Positions 9,158 to 25,236 of a stretch of 64,000 nt of DNA are shown here, one piece after another. Below the pieces are notes generated by a model. That model did no database searches. It was not told the origin of the DNA and saw only the letters and a list, made by a program, of their open reading frames with translations. A program made the translations under genes and the position numbers. The number at the start of each line of letters is the position of its first letter. Within the stretch, counting starts at the first letter, position 1. The stretch is from the NCBI RefSeq assembly GCF_030718085.1, contig NZ_JAVAJF010000004.1, forward strand, positions 62,001-126,000, in the 5' to 3' direction. The stretch is from Marinobacter sp. MDS2. Lineage in GTDB: Bacteria > Pseudomonadota > Gammaproteobacteria > Pseudomonadales > Oleiphilaceae.

Positions 9158-9379
9158 TCAGTCTTTCTTAGCACCGATACGACCGCCGAAACGCTTGTTG
9201 AACTTATCGATACGACCACCGGTGTCCATAACCTTCTGCTTACCAGTGTAGAACGGGTGGCACTGGGAGCATACGTCCAGCTGCAGGTCGTGACCAACAG
9301 TAGAGCGGGTCTTGATCACGTTACCGCAAGAACAGGTAGCAGTGATGTCTTCGTACTTAGGATGAATACCTTCTTTCAT
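9158..9379 (-). CDS. rpmE: 50S ribosomal protein L31 (zinc-binding form)
   Basis: L31 is a small protein of the large ribosomal subunit that bridges to the 30S head. It has 73 residues and starts [20 protein letters not shown]. Four cysteines (C16, C18, C37, C40, in CSCG and CSQCH) mark the zinc-binding (C+) type rather than the zinc-independent paralogue. It is a single-gene unit closed by a strong terminator, divergent from priA across a 232-bp gap. Confidence 0.97.
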
Positions 9380-9611
9380 GGCGAACCTCTTTCGGGCATG
9401 CCGCTACCTGATCACCGCCGGAGAAACCGGTTTTGGGTCAGGCACCGCAATTTTGAATCAATTGAAAGACCGCGCACTACCACGCCCGGCCAGAAACAGA
9501 CCGCGAATCTTACTGGCAAAGCTGGCCACAGGCAAGTATCTTCCGCAGAGTCTATTACCTCAAAAGCATTAGCCGGCGCCATATCACCGATTTTCAGGAT
9601 ACGCAGATACC

Positions 9612-11783
9612 GTGACACATCCCAAAACCGCACGCATCGCCTTGAACCGCCCCCTGCGCCGGCTGTTCGATTACCGTATCCCGGACAACCTGCAACTCAC
9701 GCCCGGCCAACGGGTTAACGTACCTTTCGGCCGGCAGACACTGACCGGCCTCGTGGTTGAAACCGGCGTGCAGCCGCCGAAAGGCATCACCCTAAAACCC
9801 ATACAAGCGGCGCTCGAGCCGTGGCCTGCGCTTCCGGACAACACCTTTCGCCTGCTCACTTGGGCCAGCGACTATTACCAGCACCCACTGGGGGAATGCC
9901 TGTTTACCGCCCTGCCCCCGGCGCTTCGGCGCGGAAGACCCGCAGCTCTGAAACCCGACGAGCAATGGCAAACCACCACAACCGAAGCAGCACTGCCAGC
10001 GAACGCCCATCGGCAAGTCGCACTCTTCAACGCCATCAAAACAGCGCCCGGCATCACCTCCAGCGCACTGGTGCAGTCTGGCTATAGCCGAGCCCAAATT
10101 CGCTCGCTGGAACAAAAAGAACTAATCCAGCAAAGTGTCGCCTCAAATGTACAGCCGGAGATCCCGGAAGCAGCTCTCCCCGCTCCCGTATTATCCAACG
10201 CCCAACAAAAGGCCGCTGAAGAGCTACCAGAAGACACCAGGCAGTTCTCCGCAAGCTTGCTGTTCGGCATCACCGGTAGCGGCAAAACCGAGCTGTACCT
10301 GCACTATCTAAAAACGCGCCTTCTGCATAACGAACAAGCGTTGGTACTGGTGCCGGAAATCAATCTGACACCGCAAACCGTCGCCCGATTCCGCCGTTAC
10401 TTCGGCAACCGCATTCAGGTATGGCACTCTGCCCTGAACGATAGTGACCGCCTTAGCACCTGGCTAAAGATTCGCAACGGCGAGCCAATCATTCTAATAG
10501 GCACCCGGTCGGCCGTCCTGCTCCCTTTTATCAATCTTCGCACCATCATCGTGGACGAAGAGCACGACAGCTCCTACAAACAAGGCGAAGGCTTCCGCTA
10601 CTCCGGCCGCGATGTCGCCGTTTACCGCGCCCATTTGAACCAATGTCCGGTTATTCTGGGTTCGGCAACGCCTTCTCTGGAATCCTGGCACAACGCCAGC
10701 CAAGGTAAATACAACCTTGCCCGCCTGGAACAAAGGGCCGGTAACGCCAAACCACCCGAGCTTACCCTCTTGGATATTCGCAGCCGCCCACTGGAAGCCG
10801 GGCTGGCCCGCCCTACCCTGACGGCTATAAAGGAAACACTGGATAGAGGTGAACAGGCGCTGGTATTCGTGAATCGCCGCGGCTTTGCCCCCATCATGAT
10901 GTGCTTTGACTGTGGCCACATGGAAGAGTGCCCCCGCTGCGATACCCGCCTGACTTACCACCGGCGAGACCGGGCCATGCGCTGCCACCACTGCGACTAC
11001 CAGGCCGCTGCAAGCCACACCTGCCCGAAATGCAAAAGCGAAAACTTCAAACCGGTGGGCCAAGGCACCGAGCGCACGGAGGAAACACTGGCGGAACAGT
11101 TCCCCGACATCCCGATCGTTCGGGTAGACCGGGACAGCACACAGCGCAAAGGCAGCATTCAAGCGATACTGAAACAGGTCAACAGTGGCGAGCCCTGTAT
11201 TCTGGTGGGCACTCAAATGCTCGCGAAAGGCCACGACTTCCCCAACGTCACCTTAGCCGCCGTAGTCAACGCCGATGGCGGCTTGTTCAGCGTGGACTTC
11301 CGTGCGCCGGAACAAATGATTCAAACCCTGCTGCAAGTCAGCGGCCGGGCCGGCCGTGGCGACAAACCGGGCAAGGTGCTCATACAAACTTGCCACAGCG
11401 ACCACCCCCTGCTGAATGCTTTATGCCAAGGCAATTACCCCGCCATCGCGGATCAACTTCTGGCCGAACGGGAATCCGGTTTACTGCCCCCATTCCGCGC
11501 GATGGCCATCCTGCGCGCAGAAGCCGACACCATGCAAAACAGCCTGCAGCTGCTTGACTCGCTGAAGCCCGTGGCCAGCACTCCCGGCGTTGAAGTGTGG
11601 GGGCCACTGCCCGCAGTTATCGCCCGAAAAGCCGACCGCCACCGTGCACAGCTAATATTGGTGAGTGATCACCGCAAACAACTCAACCGATTACTCACCT
11701 ACCTGTGCCAGCATTTGGACCAAACCAAGCTGCCCAGTAACACCAAATGGATGGTGGATGTAGACCCGCAAGAAACCGGTTGA
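9612..11783 (+). CDS. priA: Primosomal protein N' (replication restart helicase PriA)
   Basis: PriA recognises stalled forks and reloads DnaB through the primosome. It is a 723-residue superfamily 2 helicase. Order seen: N-terminal 3'-end-binding domain (RRLFDYRIPDNLQLTPGQRVNVPFG), Walker A GITGSGKTELY (about 221), a DEEH box in IVDEEHDSSYKQ (about 315), and paired zinc fingers (CFDCG, CPRC, CHHC, CPKC, about 435-480). The C-terminal helicase motifs include GTQMLAKGHDFPNVTL and QVSGRAGR. The start is GTG at 9612. The frame is intact and of normal length. Confidence 0.96.
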   Translation: MTHPKTARIALNRPLRRLFDYRIPDNLQLTPGQRVNVPFGRQTLTGLVVETGVQPPKGITLKPIQAALEPWPALPDNTFRLLTWASDYYQHPLGECLFTALPPALRRGRPAALKPDEQWQTTTTEAALPANAHRQVALFNAIKTAPGITSSALVQSGYSRAQIRSLEQKELIQQSVASNVQPEIPEAALPAPVLSNAQQKAAEELPEDTRQFSASLLFGITGSGKTELYLHYLKTRLLHNEQALVLVPEINLTPQTVARFRRYFGNRIQVWHSALNDSDRLSTWLKIRNGEPIILIGTRSAVLLPFINLRTIIVDEEHDSSYKQGEGFRYSGRDVAVYRAHLNQCPVILGSATPSLESWHNASQGKYNLARLEQRAGNAKPPELTLLDIRSRPLEAGLARPTLTAIKETLDRGEQALVFVNRRGFAPIMMCFDCGHMEECPRCDTRLTYHRRDRAMRCHHCDYQAAASHTCPKCKSENFKPVGQGTERTEETLAEQFPDIPIVRVDRDSTQRKGSIQAILKQVNSGEPCILVGTQMLAKGHDFPNVTLAAVVNADGGLFSVDFRAPEQMIQTLLQVSGRAGRGDKPGKVLIQTCHSDHPLLNALCQGNYPAIADQLLAERESGLLPPFRAMAILRAEADTMQNSLQLLDSLKPVASTPGVEVWGPLPAVIARKADRHRAQLILVSDHRKQLNRLLTYLCQHLDQTKLPSNTKWMVDVDPQETG

Positions 11784-11992: not shown

Positions 11993-13996
11993 ATGTCAGG
12001 GAAAATCCTTGCGCGCATGTCAGCGTTGTCGCTGGCCGTAATGCTGGCCGCTTGCGGGGGGGACGAAAGTTCCACACCTATTGTTAACGTAAACACCGGT
12101 CAAGACGACCCTTCCACCCAAGAAGACAACACTGGATCAAGCGAAAACGAAGGTGACACTGGATCAGGCGACACAGCGGTTCCTGGAGACACTCCCGACA
12201 CCGGCGGAGACAATACTACTGAAAAAGTCGCCTTGCTCGGCACAGGAACAGGGGGCAACTTCACAGAAGGCCAGCTATTTGCTGCACCACCTGCCATTGA
12301 AGCCCAAGGATCACACAGCTTTGACTTAACGCTTGCGGACCCTGAAACAAAAGAACCATGGCTGAAGTCTGGCCAGAGCGTCAGCTACGCCTCTCCCTGT
12401 ATTGACGCAGGTATCGCAAGTATCGAAGGCCCTACATCCGCTGACTCTGGCATCATCAAAGCCAGCTATAAGAGTTCCGGTTGTTACGGCACTGACTTGG
12501 TCCATGCTTTTGTTGGAGACTCAACAACCCCGGCCGCTTCGGGTTCGGTCACAATTACCCCTCCCGCAACGCAAGAATTGGCGTTAGCAGACTACAACCC
12601 TCAAACCGACTCAATAACAGCGACTGGCTCCATACATAGCTCCTCTACCAACGTATCCAAGTATGGACAAGCCAGGCTATCCGTAGGCATTGTCGATATT
12701 AATGATGGCAATAAACTGCAAGAAGGCATCCCCTACACTGTCAATTTTAAGGCGTTCTGTGCCGGGGGCGAGAACGGTTCTTTGCTCGAGCCGGCATCTA
12801 TTTCGACCGAAAACGGCATCGCTGAGACAATCTTTACTGCAGGCGCATGTAATCAGAACCCACAGGAAATAAAAGCAACCATTGAAGGAGCCGACGGCAG
12901 CATCGCTCCAGCCAGTATTGCAATTACCGTTGATGAGTCTCAGGCTTTCCAGCTTATTGCTGCATTACCTGAACCTATGTCAATCGCACCTTCATTTTTA
13001 TCTACCGAAGGTCGTGAAACAGTTTCAAAACTCAAGTTCACACTAAAAGATCAAGCTGGCAGCGGAGATGGCCTGCCATTTGAAGATGTGACATTCACTA
13101 TCGATAGCCCATCAACCGCTGAATTTGTTGAGCAGGGAACTGGAAACGCAGTCAATTCAATTACTGTAACAACGGACAACGACGGTGTCGCTATCGCACA
13201 GGTACGTGCAAAAGAAGGCGTTGACCATGAAGAGTTTCGAGTTATTGCTACCTTTGGCAGCCTGACGACTTACTCAATGCCAATTGTTGTTAATTCGATG
13301 CTCCCCTACGAGCCAAAGTTTTCACTAAGCACTGAAAACTTCGCTCCCAATACATGGGGAATAAATGGTGTTCAATCATCTCTAACTATTTACGTGGCAG
13401 ACAAAAATGGAAACCGTATACGCGGCAACACTTATGTAAATTTCCAAACTGATGAGGGCTCCATTGATCCAGACTGCGTAGTATCGGATGGGCGATGCAC
13501 AGTTACATGGGAAAGCCTCAGAACATCTCAGCCTTATGCTACGATCACTGCCTCTACACACGGGCGTACAGCTGCTGGAGGCACCGGCACTATAGAGTCA
13601 TCAACTCAGATTCTTATGTCGACTAATCAAAATGTCTTTCTAACCTTAAACAGACAAGGTGCGGTTGATACTGCAGGCACTCAGTATTGCGCCACTGCTT
13701 GGGTTCAGCTACCTGGGGAGGGGGCAACTATGTTCTCACCGCCGGTCGGAACCGAAATTTCGTTTGAAATATCTACAGGCGAGCTGGCCCCCGGAGCAGT
13801 TGCATCCAAGACAATCCCGTCCGTTGGCAGTTTGGTTCTAGACAGCGACGGTTACGAGGTGTGCACCACAGTTAAACCAGAAGTAGATGACACTGTGACG
13901 CCCAATGCCTACGCAATTGAAGTCGTTGCTACAGTCCAAACTCCCGACAACGGAGACGCGGCCACGAAAATCACCTCTGATAATTGGACAGATTAA
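11993..13996 (+). CDS. Large Ig-like-repeat lipoprotein, function unknown
   Basis: This 667-residue secreted lipoprotein has the lipobox LAAC followed by GGDESS (lipidated Cys about residue 21). An acidic Ser/Thr/Gly/Asp-rich linker (about 25-80) probably spaces it from the membrane. The rest reads as tandem beta-sandwich modules of the bacterial Ig-like (Big_1/invasin-like) kind, with phrases such as DQAGSGDGLPFEDVTFTID, TTDNDGVAIAQVRA and DKNGNRIRGNTYVNFQT. Several Cys pairs suggest disulphides. A GGAG ribosome site precedes the ATG. I do not recognise a named family and assign no function. Its terminator was split by the adjacent mobile element. Confidence 0.75.
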   Translation: MSGKILARMSALSLAVMLAACGGDESSTPIVNVNTGQDDPSTQEDNTGSSENEGDTGSGDTAVPGDTPDTGGDNTTEKVALLGTGTGGNFTEGQLFAAPPAIEAQGSHSFDLTLADPETKEPWLKSGQSVSYASPCIDAGIASIEGPTSADSGIIKASYKSSGCYGTDLVHAFVGDSTTPAASGSVTITPPATQELALADYNPQTDSITATGSIHSSSTNVSKYGQARLSVGIVDINDGNKLQEGIPYTVNFKAFCAGGENGSLLEPASISTENGIAETIFTAGACNQNPQEIKATIEGADGSIAPASIAITVDESQAFQLIAALPEPMSIAPSFLSTEGRETVSKLKFTLKDQAGSGDGLPFEDVTFTIDSPSTAEFVEQGTGNAVNSITVTTDNDGVAIAQVRAKEGVDHEEFRVIATFGSLTTYSMPIVVNSMLPYEPKFSLSTENFAPNTWGINGVQSSLTIYVADKNGNRIRGNTYVNFQTDEGSIDPDCVVSDGRCTVTWESLRTSQPYATITASTHGRTAAGGTGTIESSTQILMSTNQNVFLTLNRQGAVDTAGTQYCATAWVQLPGEGATMFSPPVGTEISFEISTGELAPGAVASKTIPSVGSLVLDSDGYEVCTTVKPEVDDTVTPNAYAIEVVATVQTPDNGDAATKITSDNWTD

Positions 13997-14012
13997 AATC
14001 AACAAAAAGCCC

Positions 14013-14023
14013 GGCCTAACCGC
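14013..14023. repeat. Left 11-bp target-site duplication of the mobile element
   Basis: GGCCTAACCGC here is repeated exactly and in the same orientation at 23433-23443. The left flank ends AAAAAGCCC and the right flank begins CGGGCTTTTT. Joining left flank, one copy and right flank gives a perfect 12-bp-stem terminator hairpin with a 6-nt loop. The duplication is therefore the insertion scar in the terminator of the lipoprotein gene. Confidence 0.9.
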
Positions 14024-14046
14024 AAGCCGTTTACCTTATGTGTGGA
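14024..14046 (+). repeat. Left terminal inverted repeat
   Basis: The repeat begins AAGCCGTTTACC and ends TGTGTGGA. All 23 bases match the reverse complement of 23410-23432. Similarity continues imperfectly inward: GCTTGGCTGAC (14050-14060) pairs with GCTTAGCTGAC read on the other strand at 23397-23407, with a one-base offset. Confidence 0.92.
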
Positions 14047-14073
14047 TGAGCTTGGCTGACTCGGGCAACAATG

Positions 14074-14105
14074 AAAAACCAGCGACCAAAAATCGCTGGT
14101 TTTTC
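14074..14105. terminator. Hairpin terminator just inside the left end of the element
   Basis: AAAAACCAGCGA, a 7-nt loop, then TCGCTGGTTTTT form a perfect 12-bp stem with A/T tracts on both sides. It can stop transcripts entering from the upstream lipoprotein gene, whose own terminator was split by the insertion, and transcripts leaving the element leftwards. Confidence 0.85.
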
Positions 14106-14178
14106 TTATTCAAAATAACTGAATAACTGCATTTTTACGCTTCTATTTTGGCATGGCAAATTTTCTGATCGACCTCTA

Positions 14179-14203
14179 CCATCGAACTATGATCCCTCGA
14201 TGG
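14179..14203 (+). promoter_or_regulatory. Promoter with flanking inverted repeat before the DUF2384 gene
   Basis: CCATCGA, 11 nt, TCGATGG is a perfect 7-bp inverted repeat. Its centre contains the -10-like TATGAT (14188-14193), with the start codon about 20 nt beyond it. A repressor bound here would block the promoter, so autoregulation by the DUF2384 protein or another element-encoded regulator is plausible. The -35 is weak (CTGATC at 17 nt). Confidence 0.45.
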
Positions 14204-14213
14204 AGTCCCTGCC

Positions 14214-14555
14214 ATGACCTCAGAAACACTTCGCAGTACATCACCCCAAGAGATGGCAGAGGTGGGTCTTCGGATTTGTCGCCGAATAGCAAGAGCCTGG
14301 GATCTTAACGAGTCAGAGCAGATAGGCCTTCTTGGGATAGCCCCGCAGAGCAATGAGGTACACCCCGAATCCCTGGAGCGGTTTTCCTATATTCTTGGAA
14401 TCTATAAGAATTTGAGGATTTTGTATCCCACCGAGGAGCGGGCAAACCAGTGGGTGAAAAGGCCCAATAGGGCTTTTGGCGGCAAGTCGGCCTTAGAGAT
14501 CATGATCGAAGATCCCGCTCCCGTGCGGCGGTATCTTGATGCTCAGTTGGTTTAA
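14214..14555 (+). CDS. DUF2384 (Xre/MbcA/ParS antitoxin-type) protein, no toxin partner
   Basis: This 113-residue protein has a C-terminal half matching the toxin-binding domain of Xre/MbcA/ParS antitoxins. The pattern is YPTEERANQWVKRPNRAFGGKS followed by ALEIMIEDPAPVRRYLDAQL (about 78-112). The N-terminal half is helical and may be a degenerate Xre-type HTH. Family members are normally followed by a RES-domain toxin. None is present here: the next gene is a small opposite-strand RHH-like gene, then hsdM. A GGAG ribosome site lies 8 nt before the ATG. It is either an orphan antitoxin remnant or a regulator for the element. The family call is from pattern recognition; the role is inference. 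Confidence 0.72.
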   Translation: MTSETLRSTSPQEMAEVGLRICRRIARAWDLNESEQIGLLGIAPQSNEVHPESLERFSYILGIYKNLRILYPTEERANQWVKRPNRAFGGKSALEIMIEDPAPVRRYLDAQLV

Positions 14556-14589
14556 TTCGCTTGCCCGGTCCGGGTGCAGGCATTTTCCC

Positions 14590-14757
14590 TTAACCCTTCT
14601 TTTTCTTCTTTTTGGCTAGTTCTGGAAAGTCCTGCTCAACCTTTTCTAGAAACCATTCTTTCATCGTCAGTCCGCGCTTCTTAATCTCACGATGAAGCGC
14701 TTCTTTGTCTTCTGCATCTATCTCTAAAACAATCCTTCCGGACTTACCTATGGCCAT
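14590..14757 (-). CDS. 55-residue ribbon-helix-helix-like regulator
   Basis: This short frame begins MAIGKSGRIVLEIDAEDKEA, continues with a helix (HREIKKRGLTMKEWFLEKVEQDF) and ends in a lysine-rich tail (about 49-54). A beta strand (RIVLEI, 8-13) followed by two amphipathic helices is the layout of MetJ/Arc DNA-binding proteins. A G-rich ribosome site (GGGGG) lies just upstream. It is divergent from hsdM and shares its upstream region with two inverted repeats, one of them over the hsdM -35 box, so control of the restriction genes is the natural guess. A toxin-free antitoxin is the alternative. The fold is inferred from sequence pattern only. Confidence 0.62.
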   Translation of the reverse strand: MAIGKSGRIVLEIDAEDKEALHREIKKRGLTMKEWFLEKVEQDFPELAKKKKKKG

Positions 14758-14775
14758 ACTGCCCCCATTAATGTC

Positions 14776-14789
14776 ACGTCACATGACGT
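14776..14789. promoter_or_regulatory. Inverted repeat near the start of the RHH-like gene (possible operator)
   Basis: ACGTCA-CA-TGACGT is a perfect 6-bp inverted repeat 19-32 nt upstream of the ATG at 14757. A possible leftward promoter (TTTTTG, 18 nt, TACAAT on the minus strand) lies just upstream, so the repeat would sit near the transcription start. Confidence 0.4.
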
Positions 14790-14855
14790 AATATTGTTAA
14801 TTGTAGTTTGAAATTGCAACAAACAAAAACCCTTTAATTTGCCGTATTTAAATAC

Positions 14856-14904
14856 GTTATGTGACATCATATCACTTGACATAACATTGATAAAGCATTA
14901 CACT
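14856..14904 (+). promoter_or_regulatory. hsdM promoter with overlapping inverted repeat
   Basis: TTGACA (14876-14881), a 17-nt spacer and TACACT (14899-14904) make a strong sigma-70 promoter 40 nt upstream of hsdM. The inverted repeat GTTATGT (14856-14862) / ACATAAC (14879-14885) overlaps the -35 box, and GTGACAT-C-ATATCAC nested inside it is a near-palindrome. This fits an operator that represses hsdMSR, perhaps through the divergent RHH-like protein. The promoter call is firmer than the operator call. Confidence 0.65.
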
Positions 14905-14943
14905 GTCGGTAATTATTGAAAATCCAAAACTAAAGGTAGCTTC

Positions 14944-16926
14944 ATGGATCCAGTGCAAAATACTCAGGCAGCATCTCTTTCCTCATTTGTATGGGAGGCG
15001 GCTAACGAGCTGTGGGGCGATTTCAAGCACACAGACTTTGCTAGGATCATCATTCCGCTTTTGCTGCTTCGGCGAATGGAGTGTGTTTTGGAGCCAACGA
15101 AAGAGGATGTCCTGGAAGCGTATGAGTCCGAGAAAGGAAGCGGCATCGATCTGAGCATCTACCTTCCTAACATCTCGAAGCTGCCCTTTTACAACACCAG
15201 TCAGTACACCATGGGAACCGTTGGTTCCACACACACCCGATCAAACCTGGAACAATACGTCAGTCACTTCTCACCGAATGTCCGTCTGGTTTTCGAGGAG
15301 TTTGGGTTCAATAACACCGTTGAAGAGCTGGATAAGGCCAAGCTCCTGTACCGAATGGTCAGCCGCTTCTCCAATATCGACCTTCACCCGGATGTTGTTT
15401 CAAATCGTGTTCTTTCGAATGCCTATGAGGATCTGATCCGCAAGTTTGCGGCGTCGATCAATGAGAAGGCCGGGGAATTTATGACCCCGAAAGACGTTGT
15501 CCGCTTGACTACAAAGCTGGTTCTGAGTGCCGACGAAGAGATCTTCACGGAAAGCGGCGTTATCCGGTCAGTCTACGATCCTTCATGCGGTCTTCTGGGT
15601 TTTATCACTGACGCGATGGACCAGATCGAAGAGATGGGGTCTACCGCCAAAATCATTCCCTACGGACAGGAGCTTGATCCAAAAACTCACGCGATGGCAC
15701 TGACCTCGATGCTGATTCTCGGATGGGATGGCAAGAATATCGTTCAGGGCAGCACCCTGTCCAACGACAAGTTGAGTGATAAGCGATTCCACTACGGCCT
15801 TGCGAATCCTCCCTTTGGGATCAAATGGGATAAGGATAAGTCGGTTGTTGAGGCCGAGCACAAAAACCTCGGCTATGCCGGTCGTTTTGGCCCCGGACTT
15901 CCACGTGTCAGTGACGGCTCTATGCTTTTCTTGATGCACCTGATTTCTCGGATGGAAGACCCTGAAAACGGCGGTGGCCGTGTTGGTATCGTGCTTTCAG
16001 GGTCGCCTCTGTTTACCGGTGATGCGGGCTCTGGTGAGTCTGAGATTCGTCGCTGGCTTCTTGAACAAGATTATGTGGAAGGCATCATTGCTCTACCGAA
16101 CGACATGTTCTTCAACACTGGCATTGGCACCTACGTCTGGATTCTTTCCAATAAGAAGGCTGATCAACGGAAGGGCAAGGTTCAGCTCATTAACTTGGCT
16201 AATGTCTGGACGCTCATGAGGAAGTCTGAGGGCACCAAGCGTCGATACCTCACCGATGATCAGATTGACGATGTGGTTCGTCTGTATGACAGCTTCACTG
16301 AATCCGAGAACTCAAAAGTCTTTGACACCACTGACTTCGCCTTCCGCAAGGTTGCGATTAAGCGCCCTCTTCGTGGCAAGCTCATCGTCAATGAAGAAAG
16401 CATTTCCTTACTCCGTGAAGGGAAGCAATTCCAAAAGCTTTCGAAAGAACAGCAGGAGGCTTGGCTCGACTACTTTGATGAGCAACATGGCGAACATGAA
16501 TACGACTGGGCGCACGGTCTGGTCAGCCGCCTGAAGAATACAGGCAAAATTGGCAAGACCACCAAGGCACTCGGAACCGAGTTCGCCAACACGCTGTTTC
16601 AGCAAGACCCTGACGGCGACATTGTCACCGACTCCAAGGGTAACCCTATTCCTGACACCTCTCTGAACGATACAGAGAATGTTCCGTTCAAGCAGGACGT
16701 AGAGGCCTATTTTGAAGAGGAGGTTCTACCCCATCTTCCAGATGCGTTCATTGATCACAGTGTCCGCGATGAGAAGGACGGTGACGTTGGCATTGTTGGC
16801 TACGAAATTAACTTCAATCGCTATTTCTATAAGTACGTTCCGCCGCGTTCATTGCACGATATAGATACTGATCTGAAGGCTTCTGAGGCTCGGATTCAAG
16901 CGCTGCTTGATGAGGTGGCTGAATGA
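14944..16926 (+). CDS. hsdM: Type I restriction-modification system DNA methyltransferase subunit HsdM
   Basis: HsdM is the N6-adenine methyltransferase subunit that, with HsdS, methylates the recognition site and forms the core of the HsdR2M2S complex. It has 660 residues: an N-terminal helical domain (about 10-135), then the methyltransferase domain. Motif IV, NPPF, is at about 287. The AdoMet-binding motif I reads YDPSCGLLGF (about 210-219), where the family usually has DPxCGTGGF. The two Leu are a real deviation in the DNA given. GKAGEFMTPKDVVRL-type text precedes motif I as usual. It overlaps hsdS by 4 nt (ATGA). Expression is driven by the promoter at 14876-14904. Confidence 0.93.
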   Translation: MDPVQNTQAASLSSFVWEAANELWGDFKHTDFARIIIPLLLLRRMECVLEPTKEDVLEAYESEKGSGIDLSIYLPNISKLPFYNTSQYTMGTVGSTHTRSNLEQYVSHFSPNVRLVFEEFGFNNTVEELDKAKLLYRMVSRFSNIDLHPDVVSNRVLSNAYEDLIRKFAASINEKAGEFMTPKDVVRLTTKLVLSADEEIFTESGVIRSVYDPSCGLLGFITDAMDQIEEMGSTAKIIPYGQELDPKTHAMALTSMLILGWDGKNIVQGSTLSNDKLSDKRFHYGLANPPFGIKWDKDKSVVEAEHKNLGYAGRFGPGLPRVSDGSMLFLMHLISRMEDPENGGGRVGIVLSGSPLFTGDAGSGESEIRRWLLEQDYVEGIIALPNDMFFNTGIGTYVWILSNKKADQRKGKVQLINLANVWTLMRKSEGTKRRYLTDDQIDDVVRLYDSFTESENSKVFDTTDFAFRKVAIKRPLRGKLIVNEESISLLREGKQFQKLSKEQQEAWLDYFDEQHGEHEYDWAHGLVSRLKNTGKIGKTTKALGTEFANTLFQQDPDGDIVTDSKGNPIPDTSLNDTENVPFKQDVEAYFEEEVLPHLPDAFIDHSVRDEKDGDVGIVGYEINFNRYFYKYVPPRSLHDIDTDLKASEARIQALLDEVAE

Positions 16927-18260
16927 AAAGCTACCCCCTATACAAGAACACCGGCCTATCTTGGATCGATGAGGTTCCCCAGGAATGGAAAAAGGTTGCT
17001 ATCAAATTCTTAGCATCAGATAAGAATTCAATATTTATTGATGGCGATTGGATTGAAAGCAACGATATTACCGACAGTGACAGTATTCGCTACATTACTA
17101 CAGGAAACGTTGGGGTCGGTAGATATATCGAGAAAGGCAATTCTTTCATTAGCGAGGAAACTTTCTCTAAGTTGAGATGTAAAGGTGTTGAGTCTGGCGA
17201 TATTTTGATAAGCAGGCTCAACCTTCCTATAGGTCGATCATGCATAGCTCCAAATCTCGGGCAGCGAGTTGTTACATCTGTAGACAACGTTATTTTGCGG
17301 AGTGATGATGCGTATGACCGAAGATTTCTAGTCTATCTGTTCTCTAACCCAGATTATCTTAATAACGCAGAAAACCTCGCCCGTGGCACGACCATGCAGA
17401 GAATTAGTCGCACTCAGCTTGGGAATATACGGATTTTTGTTCCTGAAAGTCTGAGCGAGCAAAAGTCAATTGCTGACTTTTTGGACCGTACACTTGCACC
17501 TGTGGATAGTTTGATTTTTGAGAAGCAAAAATTCATCAGCCTTCTCAAAGAAAAGCGCCAAGCCCTGATCTCACACGTTGTGACCAAAGGTTTGGATGCA
17601 GATGTGGTGATGAAGGATAGTGGGGTTGAGTGGATTGGTGAGATTCCGAAGCATTGGACAACATCAAAGCTTAAACATGTATCAACGTGCAACGATGAGG
17701 CTCTGGCCGAATCTACAGATGGAAATTTTGAAATTGAATATGTTGATATTGGCTCTGTTAAATCCGATAAAGGCATAGTTAAAAGTGAGACCCTTAAATT
17801 TTCGGATGCACCATCAAGAGCGCGAAGAATTGTCCGAGATCAAGATATTATAATTTCGACAGTTCGAACCTATTTGAAGGCTATCGCACCGATTGACGAT
17901 CCTTCATCGAACTTAATTGTGTCAACTGGATTTGCAGTAATTAGACCTAAATTGGTTGATTCTAGGTATGCAAAATATTTTTTGATGTCAAGCCAATTTA
18001 TACATGAGGTAATTGTTCGGTCAACAGGAGTTGGGTATCCAGCCATCACAGCAACTAATCTGATGAATATTGATCTGACTATTCCTGACCAGCGCGTTCA
18101 AGTTGAAATATCTGATTTTTTGGATCAACGAATCCATAAAATCAATAGTCTAATAGATGAAACATCAAAATCAATTGAGTTGCTTAAGGAGCACCGGACT
18201 GCTCTGATAAGTGCTGCTGTAACTGGAAAAATCGACCTAAGAAAGAAGGAGGTAGCGTAA
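16923..18260 (+). CDS. hsdS: Type I restriction-modification specificity subunit HsdS
   Basis: HsdS gives sequence specificity and holds the methylase and nuclease subunits together. Of 445 residues, two target recognition domains are seen. The first begins after SWIDEVPQEWKKV (about 15), the second after EWIGEIPKHWTTSKLKH (about 235). Each is followed by a conserved coiled-coil spacer: EQKSIADFLDRTLAPVDSLI...LLKEKRQALISHVVTKGL (about 180-225) and VQVEISDFLDQRIHKINSLI...LLKEHRTALISAAVTGKIDL (about 392-440). The recognition domains are AT-rich compared with hsdM, as is usual for exchangeable domains. It overlaps hsdM by 4 nt and hsdR by 1 nt. The target sequence cannot be read from the protein. 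Confidence 0.93.
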   Translation: MKSYPLYKNTGLSWIDEVPQEWKKVAIKFLASDKNSIFIDGDWIESNDITDSDSIRYITTGNVGVGRYIEKGNSFISEETFSKLRCKGVESGDILISRLNLPIGRSCIAPNLGQRVVTSVDNVILRSDDAYDRRFLVYLFSNPDYLNNAENLARGTTMQRISRTQLGNIRIFVPESLSEQKSIADFLDRTLAPVDSLIFEKQKFISLLKEKRQALISHVVTKGLDADVVMKDSGVEWIGEIPKHWTTSKLKHVSTCNDEALAESTDGNFEIEYVDIGSVKSDKGIVKSETLKFSDAPSRARRIVRDQDIIISTVRTYLKAIAPIDDPSSNLIVSTGFAVIRPKLVDSRYAKYFLMSSQFIHEVIVRSTGVGYPAITATNLMNIDLTIPDQRVQVEISDFLDQRIHKINSLIDETSKSIELLKEHRTALISAAVTGKIDLRKKEVA

Positions 18261-21200
18261 TGCCACAAGCCCATCACGAGATTAACTTGGAGGCCTACGT
18301 TACCAAGAAACTGGTCGCTAACGGCTGGCTGGAAGGCAATCCCGAGAAGTACGACCGTCATCTGGCCATGTACCCGGATGATGTCGTTGACTGGGTGAAA
18401 GCCTCTCAGCCTGAGAAGTGGGACAAGCTTTACGCCATCAATGGTGAGGATACCCGAAATGTCCTTCTTAGCCGTCTGGAGAAAGAACTGAATTCCAAGA
18501 ACGGCGGCACGATCAACGTCATTCGTCACGGTCTTTCCATTGCGGGTGCTGGTCGCATTGATATGAGCCAGTGCGCTCCGGAAGACAAGAACAACGAAAT
18601 CCTGATTGATAAATACAAAGCTAACCGCCTGAGGGTCGTCCGCCAGGTCAAGTTTAATACGACTCGTGAGTGGTCGATTGACCTCGTGTTCTTCATTAAC
18701 GGCATACCAACAGCAACAGTGGAGCTTAAAACAGACTTCACTCAGTCCATCGAAGATGCGATTACTCAGTACAAGCAAGATCGCCTCCCGAAATACAAGC
18801 TGAACGGCAAGTCCGTTTCAGAGCCCTTGCTTACCTTCAAACGGGGAGCTGTGGTCCACTTCGCGATGTCCGATTCAGAAATCTCGATGACGACGGAACT
18901 GAAAGGCGACAGCACCTACTTCCTGCCCTTCAATAAGGGCAATAACGGTCATGCAGGCAACGCGCCAAGAGATGATGGTGAATACCCAGTGGCTTACTTC
19001 TGGGAATCTGTGTGTACCTGGGAAAGCTGGCTCCGGATTTTCCATAGCTTTGTTTATGTTGAGACCAAAGAAAAGGTCGATAAGCACGGAAAGCCCTTCA
19101 AGGCTGAGACCCTGATCTTCCCGCGCTATCATCAGTTCGAAGCTGTAAACAAGATGATTCAGGACGTGAAGAAAAACGGGCCTGGTAAGCAGTATCTAAA
19201 CGAGCACAGTGCCGGTTCCGGTAAAACCAGTACCATTGCCTGGACAGCTCACGATCTAATCAAGATCCGCCACGATGACGGTACACCGTACTTCAACTCG
19301 GTCATCATTGTGACTGATAGAACGGTCTTGGATTCCCAGTTGCAAGACGCTGTGAAGCAGCTTGACCATCAGTTCGGTGTTATTGAGGCAATTGACTCTC
19401 AACAGTTCGGTGACTCAAAGAGTAAGCGCCTGGCGCAGGCCCTGAAAGAAGGGGTGCCCATTATTGTTGTGACGATCCAGACCTTCCCGTTTGCAATGGA
19501 AACGATTCTTACCGACAGAACGCTAAAAGATCGAAACTTCGCAGTCATTATCGACGAGGCTCACACCAGTCAGACCGGCAGCACCGCCCAAGGCCTTCGT
19601 GCGGCCCTGTCCATGGACTCCAAGAAGAAAATGGATCAGATGGACATTGAAGAGGTGCTGCTTGAGATCCAGAAATCCCGTGTACAGCCTTTGAATGTCT
19701 CTCATTTTGCGTTTACGGCCACACCCAAGCATACGACCATGACATTGTTCGGACGTCGTCCTGACCCTTCTCAGCCGCCTTCTGATATCAATAAGCCGGA
19801 ATCCTTCCATAGGTATACCCAGAGGCAGGCCATTGAGGAAGGATTTATCCTGGATGTGCTTCAGAACTATATTCCCTATCGCGAAGCCTATCGATTGGGT
19901 GTTCAGGGCGTTGAGGATAAACGTGTCGATAAAAAGTTGGCTAACAGAGCACTGGCCCGCTGGAAATCTTTGCACCCAACCAACGTGACCCAGAAGGTTG
20001 AGTTCATCGCAAACCACTTCATGAACTCCGTTGCGAATCTTCTCGATGGTGAAGCCAAGGCTATGGTGGTTACCAGTGGTCGAGCCCAGGCTGTGAAGTA
20101 CAAAATGGCCTTCGACAAATACATCAAGAAGCATGACCTTCATGGGATCAAGGCCCTAGTGGCCTTTTCTGGCAAGGTGCCAGGCCAAGATCTTGGCGAG
20201 GATGATCCTAAAGACCCTCTCGGATTCGATCCTGAATCTGATTACACCGAATACAACCTGAACCCCGACGCAGAAGGTAAAGATCTCCGTAACGCGTTTG
20301 ATGAGGCTCAGTTCAACGTCATGATTGTGGCCAATAAGTTTCAGACTGGTTTCAACCAGCCGAAGCTGGTGGCCATGTACTTGGATAAGAAAATTAGTGG
20401 TGTCGAAGCTGTACAGACACTCTCCCGATTAAACCGAACTTATCCAGGCAAAGAAGAAACTTACGTCATCGACTTTGTGAACGATCCTGAAGCCATTCTG
20501 AATGCTTTTAAATCCTACGATGAAGGCGCGGAGATGGCAGAGGTTCAGGACCTCAATGTCGTCTATGAGATCAAATCAGAGCTGGATAACGCTGGGATCT
20601 ACAACCAGTCAGACCTTGAGCATTTCAAAACGGCTCGTGGAAGATTCTTGGTCGGCAAAGATGTCCCTGAAAATGTTCATAAGCGCCTTTACTCTGCAAC
20701 CCAGCGGCCCACGGATATTTACAACTCAAAGCTCAATGAACTGTCTGACGCCATCAAGGAGTGGGATAAGGCCTTTGAAAAGGCCTTTGAAGCGAAGGAC
20801 GAAAAAGGCATGTCCCATGCTGAGGCTAAGCGCAGTGAACTCAGCAAGGAGCGGGAAGAATACAAGCAATTCAAAACGGTTCTTGCCCGATTTGTTCGTG
20901 TCTACAACTACATTGCCCAGCTTGTTGAATTGAGTGATGCAGAGCTTGAGAACTTTGCAGCGTTCTCCAAGCTTTTGAGTCGCAGGCTTGAAGGCGTGAC
21001 TCCTGAGAATGTAGATCTTTCTGGTATCATTTTGACCCACTACGCAATCAAAAAGGTGGACGGTGATACTGAAGGAGAGGCTGAGCCGGTTCGCCCTATT
21101 ACCGGTGGTGGTGGAGAACCTATTGATCGTGAAAAGGAATTCCTGACACAGATTATCGGCCACCTTAACGACATCTTTGGTGATGTGTCTGACCAAGATA

Positions 21201-21454
21201 CCCGAGAGAACTTTTTTGAAGGGTCCTACAAATCCCTTTTCAACGACTCAAAGGTTGCCGAGCAGGTTGATAAAAACACCAAAGAGCAGGCCTTACAGGG
21301 CGATCTGATGAAGGTACTGGTGAATAAGGTCTTTGGTTTGAGAAATGACTACAAGGACTTGTCTGACGTTGTCTTTAAAGATGAGGACGCGTTGGCTGCA
21401 TTTGCCTCACTTCTCATCGACAAGCGGAAGCATGATCTCGAAAACAAAAACTGA
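18260..21454 (+). CDS. hsdR: Type I restriction endonuclease subunit HsdR
   Basis: HsdR is the translocating helicase-nuclease of the type I complex and cuts unmodified DNA at a distance. It has 1,064 residues. The N-terminal PD-(D/E)xK nuclease is visible as D141 in IDLVFF and E155-x-K157 in TVELK. The motor follows, with Walker A SAGSGKTS (about 316), DEAH box IIDEAHTSQTG (about 430), motif III FTATPKHTTM (about 480), and later helicase motifs FQTGFNQPKLVAMYLDK and QTLSRLNRTYPG (about 695-735). The C-terminal region is the HsdM-binding helical part. The ATG shares one base with the hsdS stop. All catalytic motifs are intact, so the nuclease is probably active. Confidence 0.94.
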   Translation: MPQAHHEINLEAYVTKKLVANGWLEGNPEKYDRHLAMYPDDVVDWVKASQPEKWDKLYAINGEDTRNVLLSRLEKELNSKNGGTINVIRHGLSIAGAGRIDMSQCAPEDKNNEILIDKYKANRLRVVRQVKFNTTREWSIDLVFFINGIPTATVELKTDFTQSIEDAITQYKQDRLPKYKLNGKSVSEPLLTFKRGAVVHFAMSDSEISMTTELKGDSTYFLPFNKGNNGHAGNAPRDDGEYPVAYFWESVCTWESWLRIFHSFVYVETKEKVDKHGKPFKAETLIFPRYHQFEAVNKMIQDVKKNGPGKQYLNEHSAGSGKTSTIAWTAHDLIKIRHDDGTPYFNSVIIVTDRTVLDSQLQDAVKQLDHQFGVIEAIDSQQFGDSKSKRLAQALKEGVPIIVVTIQTFPFAMETILTDRTLKDRNFAVIIDEAHTSQTGSTAQGLRAALSMDSKKKMDQMDIEEVLLEIQKSRVQPLNVSHFAFTATPKHTTMTLFGRRPDPSQPPSDINKPESFHRYTQRQAIEEGFILDVLQNYIPYREAYRLGVQGVEDKRVDKKLANRALARWKSLHPTNVTQKVEFIANHFMNSVANLLDGEAKAMVVTSGRAQAVKYKMAFDKYIKKHDLHGIKALVAFSGKVPGQDLGEDDPKDPLGFDPESDYTEYNLNPDAEGKDLRNAFDEAQFNVMIVANKFQTGFNQPKLVAMYLDKKISGVEAVQTLSRLNRTYPGKEETYVIDFVNDPEAILNAFKSYDEGAEMAEVQDLNVVYEIKSELDNAGIYNQSDLEHFKTARGRFLVGKDVPENVHKRLYSATQRPTDIYNSKLNELSDAIKEWDKAFEKAFEAKDEKGMSHAEAKRSELSKEREEYKQFKTVLARFVRVYNYIAQLVELSDAELENFAAFSKLLSRRLEGVTPENVDLSGIILTHYAIKKVDGDTEGEAEPVRPITGGGGEPIDREKEFLTQIIGHLNDIFGDVSDQDTRENFFEGSYKSLFNDSKVAEQVDKNTKEQALQGDLMKVLVNKVFGLRNDYKDLSDVVFKDEDALAAFASLLIDKRKHDLENKN

Positions 21455-21464
21455 ATGAGACTAT

Positions 21465-21498
21465 ACTATACGTAAGGTTAAAAAACTTTGCGTATAGT
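21465..21498. terminator. Long hairpin between convergent hsdR and transposase-like gene
   Basis: A 15-bp stem (21465-21479 with 21484-21498, ACTATACG... / ...CGTATAGT, two G-U pairs as RNA) closes a 4-nt A loop. It sits in the 57-nt gap between convergent stops. It lacks a clear U-tract on the + side, so it may be a bidirectional terminator of modest strength or protect the hsdR 3' end. Confidence 0.5.
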
Positions 21499-21511
21499 CG
21501 CTCCACCGATT

Positions 21512-23338
21512 CTATTGGTATTTCCTGTAATACAGAATTTTCTCCTCCGGAATTGGTGTCTTGGCGAGTCCCAGCTTCATCGCTGGCGTAATTTTCCGAG
21601 TTGATCGACTGCAATAGTTGTAATGAATCCTGAATATGTCGCCAACGATGGTGTACATCTCAGGGTTGTATGCTGAATAGCCATGCCAGATTCTTCCCAT
21701 TCCTGTTCCAGACTGAAACGGTCTCTCGAAATACATGGACATCCTACGGATATTCATAAAGAACCTGTCTACAGGGGCGAGAGTGACCATCCGGTACAGG
21801 TTCGCCTGGTGCATCGTGTCGTACTTGGAAAGATCCGTGACAGCGGCCACCATCTTCTCTGGCTCAGCTTTTGAAACCCATGGGTGCTCTATCCACCACT
21901 CAGGTGAGTTCGGGATTTTAATAGGCTTCTTGAGGCGCTCAGCGATGATGTTGTTCGTCACCTCCATCAGATCCTTGAAGGTCAGCTGCCTCACAGGGAT
22001 CCCTGAGATAACCGAGACCATTTTGCGGAACTGCGCAACAAGCTTTTCTTTCTCATCATTGGTTTTATTCTTTGATGTCCGGACTAGAAACCCATCAGAG
22101 CGATCTTCGGCAATTTCCTCACGGAAAGCTGAGATATAGGCGGTCTTCATACCGCTATCCAAATCCAAGAAGAAGCGAGTTTTTTCAGTACTTGCGAAAA
22201 GGCGCTTGAGCAAGAAAAAGTGGGCCATCATCGTATATTCGTTATGGACTAAGGCCCCACGGACAGGAAGCTGTTTGGTAGCGTCGATGTTTTCCGATGA
22301 GTCTGAGAGATTGAATTTTTGGTCGATGAAAGACTTTATTTTGATTTCGTCCCTGAGATTTCCCGCAAAAGGCAGTTTCTCTTTCGGAGGTCGATTCTTA
22401 ACGGCTTCATCAAACTCTCTGGCAAGCCAAATTCTGGCATGCTTGCGGTGATGTTTCGCTCTATCGTAGTCACCAGACTCAATAGCATCTCTTTCGGCCT
22501 CATATGCGTCTACAGAGCCGTCGTAGTTGAAGTTGAAAGCAAACACATAGCTGGAATTCAGGCAGGCTGTAGCAATCCCATAAAGATCTGAGTTTCGCTT
22601 GTCGTCACGGTGAGACCAGTTAGTCATCAGGATCTGTCTGTCCGTAGATAGGTAAAGGCGCTTGAAATTCATCCTCTCAAGCTTCCTCTCCCGGCTTCTT
22701 GCAAAATCCAGGCATTGTCTGTGGATGAACCGAATTTTCCCGTAAACAGCCTTTTCAGAAAGATCCAGAAGCTCGGCTATGCGTCGAATGGGTTCCTTGT
22801 TGACCAAAAGCTTGAATAGGAGCTTGTTGAGATGGGGCTTCTCCTGCCGTCTTGATTTTGGCTTTGCTGAGAAATTTTTCCCGCAATGGTTGCATTGGTA
22901 GCGCTGATTTCCGCTGCTTGTCCTGCCATTTTTATTGACTGATATTGGCTTTTTGCCTATGTTGCTATCACAAGCCTGATTTGGGCATTTAAGCGGGTTC
23001 TCATTCAGATAGCCGGAGATCCTCGAAAGCTCTTCATAAACAGCTTGATTGCTTTTCAGAGTCGTGGAGACAACGGTGATGTCCTCACCTTGCTTTTTTC
23101 GCTCTGTGCAGATTTCACAAACGAGAGAGGCAGTATTTTTACCGGTTCCTGAGATCCGATAGGAGCCTCCACCACGCTGAAATGCCTCTTCCAACCCTTC
23201 GCCAGATCCATCAGAATTTTTGATAGAACTGAGCGTCAAAAAGTTTTCACACGTCGGATTTCGGCATCCATTAGCCTGGATATCTTCAACAGGGAAGGGA
23301 ATTCTGGGCGGTCGATTTTGGAAAGATTTCTTTCCCAT
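21512..23338 (-). CDS. Zinc-ribbon / DDE-like transposase-type protein, likely transposase of the element
   Basis: This 608-residue protein has two IS1-like zinc ribbons: C25/C30 with C74/C77 and C118/C123 with C149/C152 (the second runs CPNQAC...YQCNHCGKNFS). An HTH follows (about 168-207, PIRRIAELLDLSEKAVYGKI). An RNase H-like region follows: STDRQ (D233), FFLDLDSGMKTAY (D392/D394) and a C-terminal VDRFFMNIRRMSMYFERP (D524), which resembles the last acidic position of IS1/IS1595-type transposases with Asp instead of Glu. It is much longer than those transposases. It starts 59 nt inside the right inverted-repeat boundary, is the only mobility-type gene in the element, and lies under a LexA box. 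The transposase role is inferred. A domesticated transposase acting in defence is the alternative. Confidence 0.7.
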   Translation of the reverse strand: MGKKSFQNRPPRIPFPVEDIQANGCRNPTCENFLTLSSIKNSDGSGEGLEEAFQRGGGSYRISGTGKNTASLVCEICTERKKQGEDITVVSTTLKSNQAVYEELSRISGYLNENPLKCPNQACDSNIGKKPISVNKNGRTSSGNQRYQCNHCGKNFSAKPKSRRQEKPHLNKLLFKLLVNKEPIRRIAELLDLSEKAVYGKIRFIHRQCLDFARSRERKLERMNFKRLYLSTDRQILMTNWSHRDDKRNSDLYGIATACLNSSYVFAFNFNYDGSVDAYEAERDAIESGDYDRAKHHRKHARIWLAREFDEAVKNRPPKEKLPFAGNLRDEIKIKSFIDQKFNLSDSSENIDATKQLPVRGALVHNEYTMMAHFFLLKRLFASTEKTRFFLDLDSGMKTAYISAFREEIAEDRSDGFLVRTSKNKTNDEKEKLVAQFRKMVSVISGIPVRQLTFKDLMEVTNNIIAERLKKPIKIPNSPEWWIEHPWVSKAEPEKMVAAVTDLSKYDTMHQANLYRMVTLAPVDRFFMNIRRMSMYFERPFQSGTGMGRIWHGYSAYNPEMYTIVGDIFRIHYNYCSRSTRKITPAMKLGLAKTPIPEEKILYYRKYQ

Positions 23339-23353
23339 TTTTGGAAGCGCCTA

Positions 23354-23373
23354 TACTGTCTGGATGTACAGTA
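23354..23373 (-). promoter_or_regulatory. LexA (SOS) box upstream of the transposase-like gene
   Basis: TACTGT-N8-ACAGTA matches all twelve arm positions of the enterobacterial LexA consensus (core CTG-N10-CAG). It ends 16 nt before the ATG at 23338 and abuts the -10 element, the geometry of a LexA-repressed promoter. Confidence 0.85.
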
Positions 23374-23401
23374 TTATAGGCCCTTCCAGAGGGATTGTCA
23401 G
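23373..23401 (-). promoter_or_regulatory. Sigma-70 promoter of the transposase-like gene, partly within the right inverted repeat
   Basis: Read leftward on the minus strand: CTGACA (23396-23401), a 17-nt spacer, TATAAT (23373-23378). The -35 lies in the imperfect inner extension of the right terminal repeat, and the -10 touches the LexA box. This is a strong promoter that SOS induction should release. Confidence 0.8.
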
Positions 23402-23409
23402 CTAAGCCG

Positions 23410-23432
23410 TCCACACATAAGGTAAACGGCTT
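23410..23432 (-). repeat. Right terminal inverted repeat
   Basis: The repeat reads TCCACACATAAGG...CGGCTT and is the exact 23-bp reverse complement of the left terminal repeat at 14024-14046. Its inner extension overlaps the -35 box of the transposase-like gene. Confidence 0.92.
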
Positions 23433-23443
23433 GGCCTAACCGC
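23433..23443. repeat. Right 11-bp target-site duplication
   Basis: GGCCTAACCGC is identical to 14013-14023. It is followed by CGGGCTTTTT, the second half of the terminator that the element interrupted. Confidence 0.9.
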
Positions 23444-23451
23444 CGGGCTTT

Positions 23452-23480
23452 TTGCTTACACTCCAACTTTCCGCGATAAT
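23452..23480 (+). promoter_or_regulatory. argS promoter
   Basis: TTGCTT (23452-23457), exactly 17 nt, GATAAT (23475-23480) form a good sigma-70 promoter 70 nt upstream of argS. The mobile element inserted only 20 bp upstream of the -35 and left it intact. Confidence 0.65.
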
Positions 23481-23550
23481 ACGCCTCTTCTATTTTCAAC
23501 GGGCGCCCTGCCCTGACACCCACTCTTCTGAAAACCGAGTCGTCTGACGC

Positions 23551-25236
23551 ATGAAAGAGACCGTATCCGAGCTTCTCCAGTCTGCACTGGCCACCCTTCA
23601 ATCCGAAGGCACGTTGCCGGCTGATCAAACCTTCACTCCGCAAGTTGGCAATACCAAGGACAAATCCCACGGGGATTACGCCTGTAATATTGCTTTGGTG
23701 GCTTCCAAAGCCGCTGGCTGCCCTCCGCGAAAACTGGCTGAAGCGTTGATCGCTGCGCTGCCGGAAAGCGATGCGGTTGCCAAGGTAGAGATTGCCGGGC
23801 CCGGGTTTATCAACTTTTTCATGAGCACCGCCAGCGCGTTCGGGATTGTGAACACGATTCTGGATGAAGCGGAGCAGTTTGGCCGTAATAACAACGGCAA
23901 GGGTGAAAAGGTTCAGGTGGAGTTTGTTTCCGCCAACCCCACCGGCCCGCTGCACGTGGGTCACGGCCGTGGCGCGGCGATCGGAGACTGCCTGTGCCGT
24001 CTGTTGGAAGCCAACGGTTACGATGTTACCCGCGAGTTTTATTACAACGATGCCGGTGCTCAGATCAACAACCTGGCACTGTCGGTTCAGTCCCGGGTGA
24101 AGGGCCTGACACCCGAGCACGAAAGCTGGCCAGAAGACGGTTACCGGGGTGATTACATTGTTGATGTGGCCAATGCCTACCTGGCCGGTGAAACCGTGAT
24201 CGCGGACGACCGTGAAGTTACGGCTAAAGCGGACCCCGATGACCAGGCGGCGATTCGCGAATTTGCCGTTGCCTACCTGCGCCGGGAACAGGATCTGGAC
24301 CTGAAAGCCTTCGGCGTTCAGTTCGATGTGTATTTCCTGGAATCCTCCCTGTACGACGATGGCAAAGTAGAAGCCACCGTTGAGCGCCTCAAAGCCAACG
24401 GCTACACCTATGAGCACGAAGGTGCCATGTGGCTGAAAACCACCGAGTTCGGCGACGATAAAGACCGGGTGATGCGCAAGAAAGACGGTGGCTACACCTA
24501 CTTCCTGCCAGACGTGGCCTATCACCTGGACAAGTGGCAGCGTGGCTTTACCACCGTGATCAATGAGCAAGGTGCGGATCACCACTCCACCGTGACGCGG
24601 GTTCGCGCGGGTTTGCAGGCACTGAAAGCCGACATCCCTCAGGGCTGGCCGGATTACGTTCTGCACCAGATGGTGATGGTTACCCGTTCCGGGCAGGAAG
24701 TGAAAATATCCAAACGTGCCGGTAGCTACGTCACCGTGCGTGATTTGATCGACGAAGTGGGCCGCGATGCCACCCGCTTCTTCCTGGCGGCGCGCCGGGT
24801 AGACTCCCAGTTGACCTTCGATATTGACCTGGCCCGCTCTCAGACCAATGAAAACCCGGTGTATTACATTCAGTATGCCCACGCTCGGATCTGCAGCGTG
24901 TTGCGCAAGCTGGAAGCCGAAGGCGTTCAGCGCGGTCGCACCGAATGCGTGGGTGACTTGAGCCTGCTGAAGCTGGATGAAGAAAAAGAGCTGGCAAACC
25001 AGTTGGCGAAATACCCGGAACTAATTGCCAACTCCGCGGCTCAGCGTGAACCGCATCATTTGACGCACTATTTGCGCGACCTGGCCGGCCAGTTCCACAC
25101 CTACTACAACGCGCACAAAGTGCTGATTGAAGACACCGCACTGCGTGATGCACGAGTGAGCTTATACCTGGCCGTGCGCCAGGTGATCGAGAACGGCTTA
25201 GGCCTGCTGGGCGTAAGCGCCCCTGAGGAGATGTAA
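23551..25236 (+). CDS. argS: Arginyl-tRNA synthetase
   Basis: ArgS charges tRNA-Arg with arginine in the cytoplasm. It has 561 residues, a standard length. Order seen: N-terminal Add-1 domain (about 1-95), class I catalytic core with the HIGH-type motif HVGHGRGA (about 135) after [11 protein letters not shown], the KMSKS-like region [12 protein letters not shown] (about 385), and the C-terminal anticodon-binding DALR domain ([14 protein letters not shown] onwards, about 445-561). It is followed 7 nt later by the SPOR-protein gene and then hslVU, the order known in pseudomonads. Confidence 0.97.

Follow-up and report, generated by a model that had tools for sequence, protein, structure and literature searches.

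A restriction-modification transposon in Marinobacter sp. MDS2 and the apparent preference of its DDE-type transposase family for terminator-like palindromes

Introduction

The 64,000-nucleotide stretch of Marinobacter sp. MDS2 analysed here (contig NZ_JAVAJF010000004.1, positions 62,001 to 126,000; hereafter the window) contains a 9.4-kb element that carries a type I restriction-modification (R-M) gene set, hsdMSR, and splits a host terminator between a lipoprotein gene and argS. The question that this locus raises is whether the terminator was struck incidentally or chosen. Our comparison with related insertions indicates that the landing was not incidental, a point that the first-pass annotation of this DNA had missed. 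The family to which the element belongs appears to prefer the tips of palindromes resembling Rho-independent terminators, and its 608-amino-acid (aa) DDE-type transposase would read a symmetric A-tract/GC/T-tract target; we put the probability of this reading at about 0.88. The preference is strongly supported by the sequences compared, and the mechanism is one that we infer from them.

Boundaries of the element

The complete element spans 14023-23433 of the window (9,411 bp) and is bounded by a perfect 24-bp terminal inverted repeat that starts with C, with the left, transposase-distal copy at 14023-14046 (plus strand) and the right, transposase-proximal copy at 23410-23433 (minus strand); both were assigned from the repeat and from family comparison. 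The target duplication is 9 bp, GCCTAACCG. Its first copy (14014-14022) closes the left half of the host terminator (14004-14022) and its second (23434-23442) opens the right half (23434-23453). Identical flanks, GGCCTAACCGC, were confirmed on both sides of the element. The first-pass annotation had given 23-bp repeats and an 11-bp duplication; the identical repeats and flanks stand, and at this site alone the two descriptions are equivalent, but the lengths had to be revised because the duplication is 9 bp in 36 of the 40 family insertions that we could delimit by their ends and 10 bp in the other four. The additional G...C match is the inner base pair of the terminator, lying beside the terminal C...G of the element. 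With up to three mismatches allowed, the 24-bp repeat has no further occurrence in the window (shuffle expectation 0) or in the rest of the 3.45-Mb genome, and Rfam returned no match at gathering scores over 13800-23700.

Insertion at terminator tips

In 31 of the 40 insertions, the insertion point coincides with the tip of a hairpin that resembles a terminator and is flanked by A- and T-tracts. A site passed the strict test behind this count if a hairpin of 5 bp or more was centred no further than 4 nt from the centre of the duplication, if a 10-nt stretch to the left held five or more A and if one to the right held five or more T; two centres were tried for each of the four 10-bp sites. Control positions at the same loci passed far less often (308 of 213,401; 0.14%), as did positions outside open reading frames (ORFs) of at least 100 codons (111 of 22,258; 0.5%) and those 10-40 nt from the true insertion points (3 of 2,480). 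An earlier count, made without the last six elements and prior to the four 10-bp corrections, was 26 of 34. Position counts over 27 sites gave A in 21-25 at each of positions -14 to -10 and T in 21-24 at each of +10 to +13, with a GC-rich stretch between them. At the L040 locus, uninterrupted terminator-like hairpins were seen in all 11 relatives shown, and L162, L163, L164 and L166 have exactly one copy of its 9 bp. The relatives shown for the L099 locus have hairpins with other loops, and L154/L160, at the same place, lack the A-tract.

How such a target would be recognised can be pictured in two ways. The transposase may read the A- and T-tracts and the GC-rich middle as linear double-stranded DNA, with hairpin potential incidental, an account that we hold at slightly under an even chance. 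It agrees with the A/T positions being less variable than any other part of the target matrix, with L004, where the insertion follows the tracts at a site whose hairpin and tract midpoints disagree, and with the somewhat better prediction of the centre by a symmetric leave-one-out matrix (off by no more than 1 nt in 23 of 28 sites) than by the best hairpin (likewise off by no more than 1 nt in 20 of 28). Against it, L030 has a strong hairpin but a misplaced T-tract, and hairpin and tracts are nearly inseparable in natural terminators. Alternatively, the target may be a structure, either a DNA cruciform or the terminator hairpin or paused RNA polymerase during transcription. This is a serious contender that falls just short of even odds, and it is consistent with the hairpin centring just given and with stems whose sequences change between sites but whose bases still pair. 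It would sit less easily with the lack of any evident targeting protein: the transposase is the sole ORF of at least 50 aa (non-overlapping list) in the ~2-kb elements L029, L030, L033 and L044.

It is very improbable that terminators are enriched only because intergenic insertions survive selection while the transposase itself is indifferent. In L108, L109, L111 and L116 the insertion point does fall in a gap between annotated genes, a place where one expects terminators, but selection cannot explain the exact register, with 31 of 40 points at tips as against the 3 of 2,480 nearby positions and the 0.5% outside long ORFs, nor the placement of 23 of 28 sites within 1 nt by the matrix.

Several points weigh against a terminator preference of the family. 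Nine of the 40 insertions fail the strict test (L029, L030, L033, L097, L108, L110, L113, L136 and L138); the hairpin of L030 is off-centre by 3.5 nt, and no terminator was seen in L033, L097 or L138. The preference is thus strong, not absolute, and is possibly looser in some branches. Because the criteria and the matrix were fixed with the first sites already in view, the exact fraction needs re-measuring, although the contrast with the controls is too large to depend on it. Copies that share a genome are related to one another, although they sit in different targets, and transposition itself is deduced from sequence alone. The window genome has one copy of the element only, which leaves present-day activity there unproven.

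Given these observations, we suggest that the 608-aa transposase, as a dimer or larger assembly, would bind the 24-bp ends, read the target as two-fold symmetric (A-tract, GC-rich palindrome of ~18-20 bp, T-tract) and join the ends across the 9 bp at its centre. Insertion at terminators would avoid breaking genes, because terminators lie at gene ends. Among the titles and abstract openings listed by terminator-directed searches of open-access literature, a scope that does not cover ISfinder or TnCentral, none described a DDE transposon family that targets terminators.

The empty site in relatives

The stretch that runs from the insertion point into argS was matched in 121 of the 124 genomes of the genus, and the empty-site comparison took in 30 loci, the window among them. 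Four closest relatives (G031, G032, G079 and G096; 92-93% identity across 1,167 bp of this stretch) have the terminator AAAAGCCCGGCCTAACCGCCGGGCTTTTT uninterrupted, with a single copy of the 9 bp and the whole 9.4 kb absent. In more distant relatives whose alignment reaches the site, the hairpins have different loop sequences; the other alignments end before it. The terminator that the first-pass annotation had rebuilt by excision on paper, and the empty site that it had proposed to look for, are therefore both present in relatives, and no aligned locus has the hsd genes without the ends. Together with the ends and the duplication, the empty site bears out its claim of a complete transposon with exact ends, and 14023-23433 is a real, complete and autonomous-looking cargo transposon.

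Type I R-M systems are often strain-variable, yet a host defence island flanked by chance or unrelated repeats is improbable in the extreme, given four relatives that lack the whole 9.4 kb and keep one target copy, ends and duplications that recur across the family, and the same 24-bp end beside different cargo at L010. An account of the 11-bp repeats by chance alone was dropped after the comparison with relatives. Integrase-mediated insertion was likewise rejected, since the duplications are 9 bp and the scanned ORFs have no integrase domain, as annotated earlier, the sole integrase-like signal being a sub-threshold match to a phage-integrase N-terminal domain (E 0.07).

Copies of the family

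Family matches were found in 7 of the 124 genomes of the genus, the window genome included, and in 5 of 390 genomes of the order, 5 of 369 of the class and 16 of 398 of the phylum; each of the latter counts includes the window genome, and some genomes are shared between searches. One scan of viral contigs gave no relative. The duplication copies are identical in 39 of the 40 delimited insertions, with L005 (counted) differing at one base. Genome G109 has five loci with window-type ends in five different targets; L035, L037, L038 and L040 are copies there with the same ends, and L035 and L037 share 99.5% identity across 2,054 bp. Genome G411 has four copies (L098, L099, L100 and L118) in different targets, with the same transposase and ends and lengths of 12.0, 9.3, 3.8 and 4.5 kb. 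L010, on a contig of a metagenome-assembled genome, has the very same 24-bp end, and the tail of its transposase shows 94% identity over 149 residues; its cargo and target are different. The other copies sought by the first-pass annotation thus exist: their ends match, they occupy other targets with duplications of 9-10 bp, and their cargo varies; ends, duplications, targets and the exchange of cargo can be read from the aligned copies themselves.

Some matches stand outside the 40. L010 is cut by its contig and has one end, and in L041 the second end was not found before the contig ends; a half terminator adjoins the element in both. L042 has the same flank as L043 on a contig that begins at the element end, L107, L114 and L115 have a left flank identical to that of L110 and a different right flank, and L112 has lost its left end. 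No ends were delimited for L031, L032, L011, L046, L103 and L106 (L011 and L046 were tried with one set of end patterns only) or for L140 and L141.

The last two carry a shorter, 489-aa relative of the transposase (L140:2972-4441 and L141:2785-4254; genus g411) immediately 3' of a gene that, by eye, is deoD-like; a search for transposon ends around it found none. Besides these two genomes, six others of genus g411 have a single partial match each in the phylum search, and eight of the 16 genomes matched there have the shorter relative. It looks like a domesticated transposase.

Other mobile genes have entered some copies. In L035 and L037-L040 of G109, IS1595-like transposase genes (318-324 aa, named by eye) separate the family transposase from the proximal end, in either orientation and at nearly the same place where compared; these are nested insertions that recur. 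In L038 an IS3-like pair additionally lies within the family transposase gene.

Identity of the transposase

The transposase gene sits by one element end. In the window it encodes the 608-aa protein at 21512-23338 (minus strand), with two Cys-rich zinc-ribbon-like modules, a helix-turn-helix (HTH) and an RNase-H-like core; a promoter-like site, CTGACA-17-TATAAT, precedes it at 23373-23401 (minus strand), on an 11/12 consensus match only. By fold and conservation it is likely a DDE-type transposase. Its nearest fold is ISCth4 (IS256 family), and D233, D392 and E538, conserved in the family, form a candidate catalytic triad, although it weighs against our reading that these residues rest on conservation, without a superposed active site.

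Sequence models placed the protein less clearly. A zinc ribbon plus HTH at residues 133-209 matched NF050000 (35.3 bits, cut-off 28) and the IS1 model NF033558, the latter at 44.4 bits against a cut-off of 100 and over those residues only. NF048018 (N-terminal 4-Cys domain) passed its cut-off of 27 with 29.8, and the transposase model NF048019 reached 21.9 against 150. No IS1, IS1595 or IS256 catalytic-domain model matched. For 55 family members Pfam gave no IS256/mutator model at E 0.01, a miss compatible with kinship. Database labels such as 'IS1 family transposase' probably stem from the zinc ribbon. A search against sequences of solved structures was set aside: among the best 60 of 147 matches, all were zinc-finger proteins or peptides over the zinc-ribbon region.

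IS256 transposases are ~400 aa long, so that compared with ISCth4 the 608-aa protein is longer; its element also carries cargo and differs in target choice. With IS1 and IS1595 it shares the zinc ribbon and HTH module, whereas the rest of the protein is unmatched and its length and the CAAGCCG ends differ; IS1595 relatives with passenger genes are known. Other mobile elements likewise choose hairpin-forming extragenic sequences: IS1397/ISKpn1 and IS621 insert in repetitive extragenic palindromic (REP)/palindromic unit (PU) elements, and class IIC group II introns insert by terminators. Their enzymes and chemistry differ, and REP elements are genome-specific repeats, whereas the family described here uses terminators unrelated in sequence across phyla.

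Tn7491, a named distant relative

The first-pass annotation had assigned neither the repeats nor the 608-aa protein to a named family. Their place outside the IS1, IS1595 and IS256 sequence models holds, but a named distant relative exists in Tn7491, whose transposase is 22.6% identical over 96% (tblastn, full-length; E 2e-21). According to PMC10763498, Tn7491 is a dfrG transposon first found within Tn6198 (Bertsch 2013, as cited there) and is registered with the terminal repeat TAAGTAGTTCAGTTTTGGAGTACAAAA and a 9-bp duplication. The end sequence from our boundary script, obtained independently of the publication, is the published end. Tn7491 likewise is bounded by inverted repeats, has one terminal transposase gene plus cargo and makes a 9-bp duplication (10 bp at L109). 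Unlike the window element with its hsdMSR genes, it has Bacillota hosts, another end sequence, dfrG drug-resistance cargo (at L108 and the other Tn7491 sites) and an extra small upstream ORF.

Three of the six distinct Tn7491 sites examined are terminators by the strict test (L109, L111 and L116). A second copy is reported between convergently oriented genes (PMC10763498), a tail-to-tail position that fits terminator targeting; the word 'terminator' is absent from the available part of that article's text. In the transposase tree, the exonuclease fusion, Rhizobium and G411 have long branches, and a join with the Bacillota pair is possibly false, so that the branching order at the base is tentative. 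This fusion (793 aa, L104:1993-4374) has an N-terminal exonuclease part (PF00929). The transposase of L139 (850 aa; element 7762-11630) is grouped with it as having such a part; those of L139 and L105 start alike, and these two elements share another end sequence, CGGGCTATTGAG.

A terminator-like hairpin inside the element

A bidirectional terminator-like hairpin, GAAAAACCAGCGACCAAAAATCGCTGGTTTTTC, lies at 14073-14105 (element positions 51-83), at the place through which transcription from the upstream lipoprotein gene would run into the element; it was assigned from a scan of distal ends and from compensatory changes. In that scan of 28 elements, from which the 12 delimited later were left out, 19 had such a hairpin in the 220 nt next to the distal end (16 of them 45-90 nt from it, three closer to it), compared with 110 of 1,120 random windows. 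Alignment of eleven distal ends showed that the stems differ while pairing is kept (CCAGCGA/TCGCTGG in the window, CCAGTGA/TCACTGG in G109). This internal terminator, ~50 nt inside the distal end, probably replaces the host terminator that insertion splits.

Nonetheless, this argument needs to be interpreted with caution. The controls were random host DNA, not intergenic sequence, the 19 include near-identical copies (L037, L038 and L040; L098, L099 and L100), and 10 of the 28 also gave a match within 100 nt of their proximal end. A simple terminator scan did not list the 14073-14105 hairpin and found no excess in the region (11 found vs 9.6 in shuffles); we surmise that it missed the hairpin because the T's pair within the stem. 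At the junctions (14012-14029 and 23428-23449), the element end and a half terminator can form an outward-facing hairpin followed by T's. It is possible that these junction hairpins are a second way of keeping termination.

Cargo of the window element and of the family

The type I R-M genes of the window were borne out as annotated, each ORF having its diagnostic domains: hsdM (methyltransferase, 660 aa, 14944-16926; PF02384, PF12161; PADLOC MTase_I, 812 bits), hsdS (specificity subunit, 445 aa, 16923-18260; PF01420; PADLOC Specificity_I) and hsdR (restriction subunit, 1064 aa, 18260-21454; PF04313, PF18766, PF22679; PADLOC REase_I), all on the plus strand. The two small cargo genes noted earlier are also present. 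One encodes an Xre/MbcA/ParS antitoxin-like protein of 113 aa (14214-14555, plus strand; C-terminal PF09722, E 2.2e-9), which may regulate the hsd operon and has no toxin partner among the listed ORFs; the other encodes a 55-aa protein (14590-14757, minus strand), of which the Colwellia element L009 has a counterpart at 53% identity.

Outside Tn7491, defence-like cargo was found in 6 of 34 elements, the ORFs of the others having been scanned in part. Restriction cargo is present in at least five members: type I in the window and type II/IIG in L096 (a 622-aa methyltransferase matching type IIG models, plus a specificity protein), L135 (D12 methyltransferase and NotI-family endonuclease), L136 (Eco57I-type methyltransferase and BsuBI/PstI endonuclease) and L137 (a DNA methylase and a protein with a weak match to a type II endonuclease, E 2.5e-5). 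L009 carries a 1277-aa protein matching the Tmn defence system, and its transposase is split in two ORFs. L104 carries AcrB-type and CusB-type proteins of metal efflux. Several short elements have one ORF of ~200-260 aa that, by eye, is apparently membrane-bound or secreted.

Two further loci have unusual gene content. The cargo of the 12-kb element L098 contains many small same-strand ORFs and, dispersed among them (L098:9821-19768), 15 copies of a 38-nt repeat (like GTCCGCTTTTGGCCCC..AGCTGCC); an integron was considered but is not supported, as the GTTRRRY core-site pattern was not in excess at this locus (23 found vs 32.6 expected). At L032:14950-23351 (Polaromonas JS666 plasmid 2), a family transposase is followed by genes for an HNH-motif protein and a large AAA-domain protein, which are possibly further defence cargo; no element ends were found there.

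Implications

The family has one named distant member, Tn7491; its strong preference for terminator tips was described nowhere in the literature searched, and at least five members carry restriction cargo. Most DDE transposons hit many sites or one gene-specific site. We consider it somewhat probable that this is a cross-phylum DDE family that uses intrinsic terminators, read as A-tract, GC palindrome and T-tract, as a universal safe landing site, repairs termination with a terminator of its own near one end and spreads swappable cargo, above all complete R-M sets and other anti-phage systems but also drug and metal resistance, where safe insertion and terminator replacement are benefits that we infer. 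If this is true, a terminator would be a target with many copies per bacterial genome that is yet rarely harmful to enter. Such targeting raises the question of how a transposase reads a terminator and predicts the landing sites of the clinically relevant Tn7491, and it would go some way towards accounting for the transfer of restriction systems from host to host by small units that mobilise themselves.

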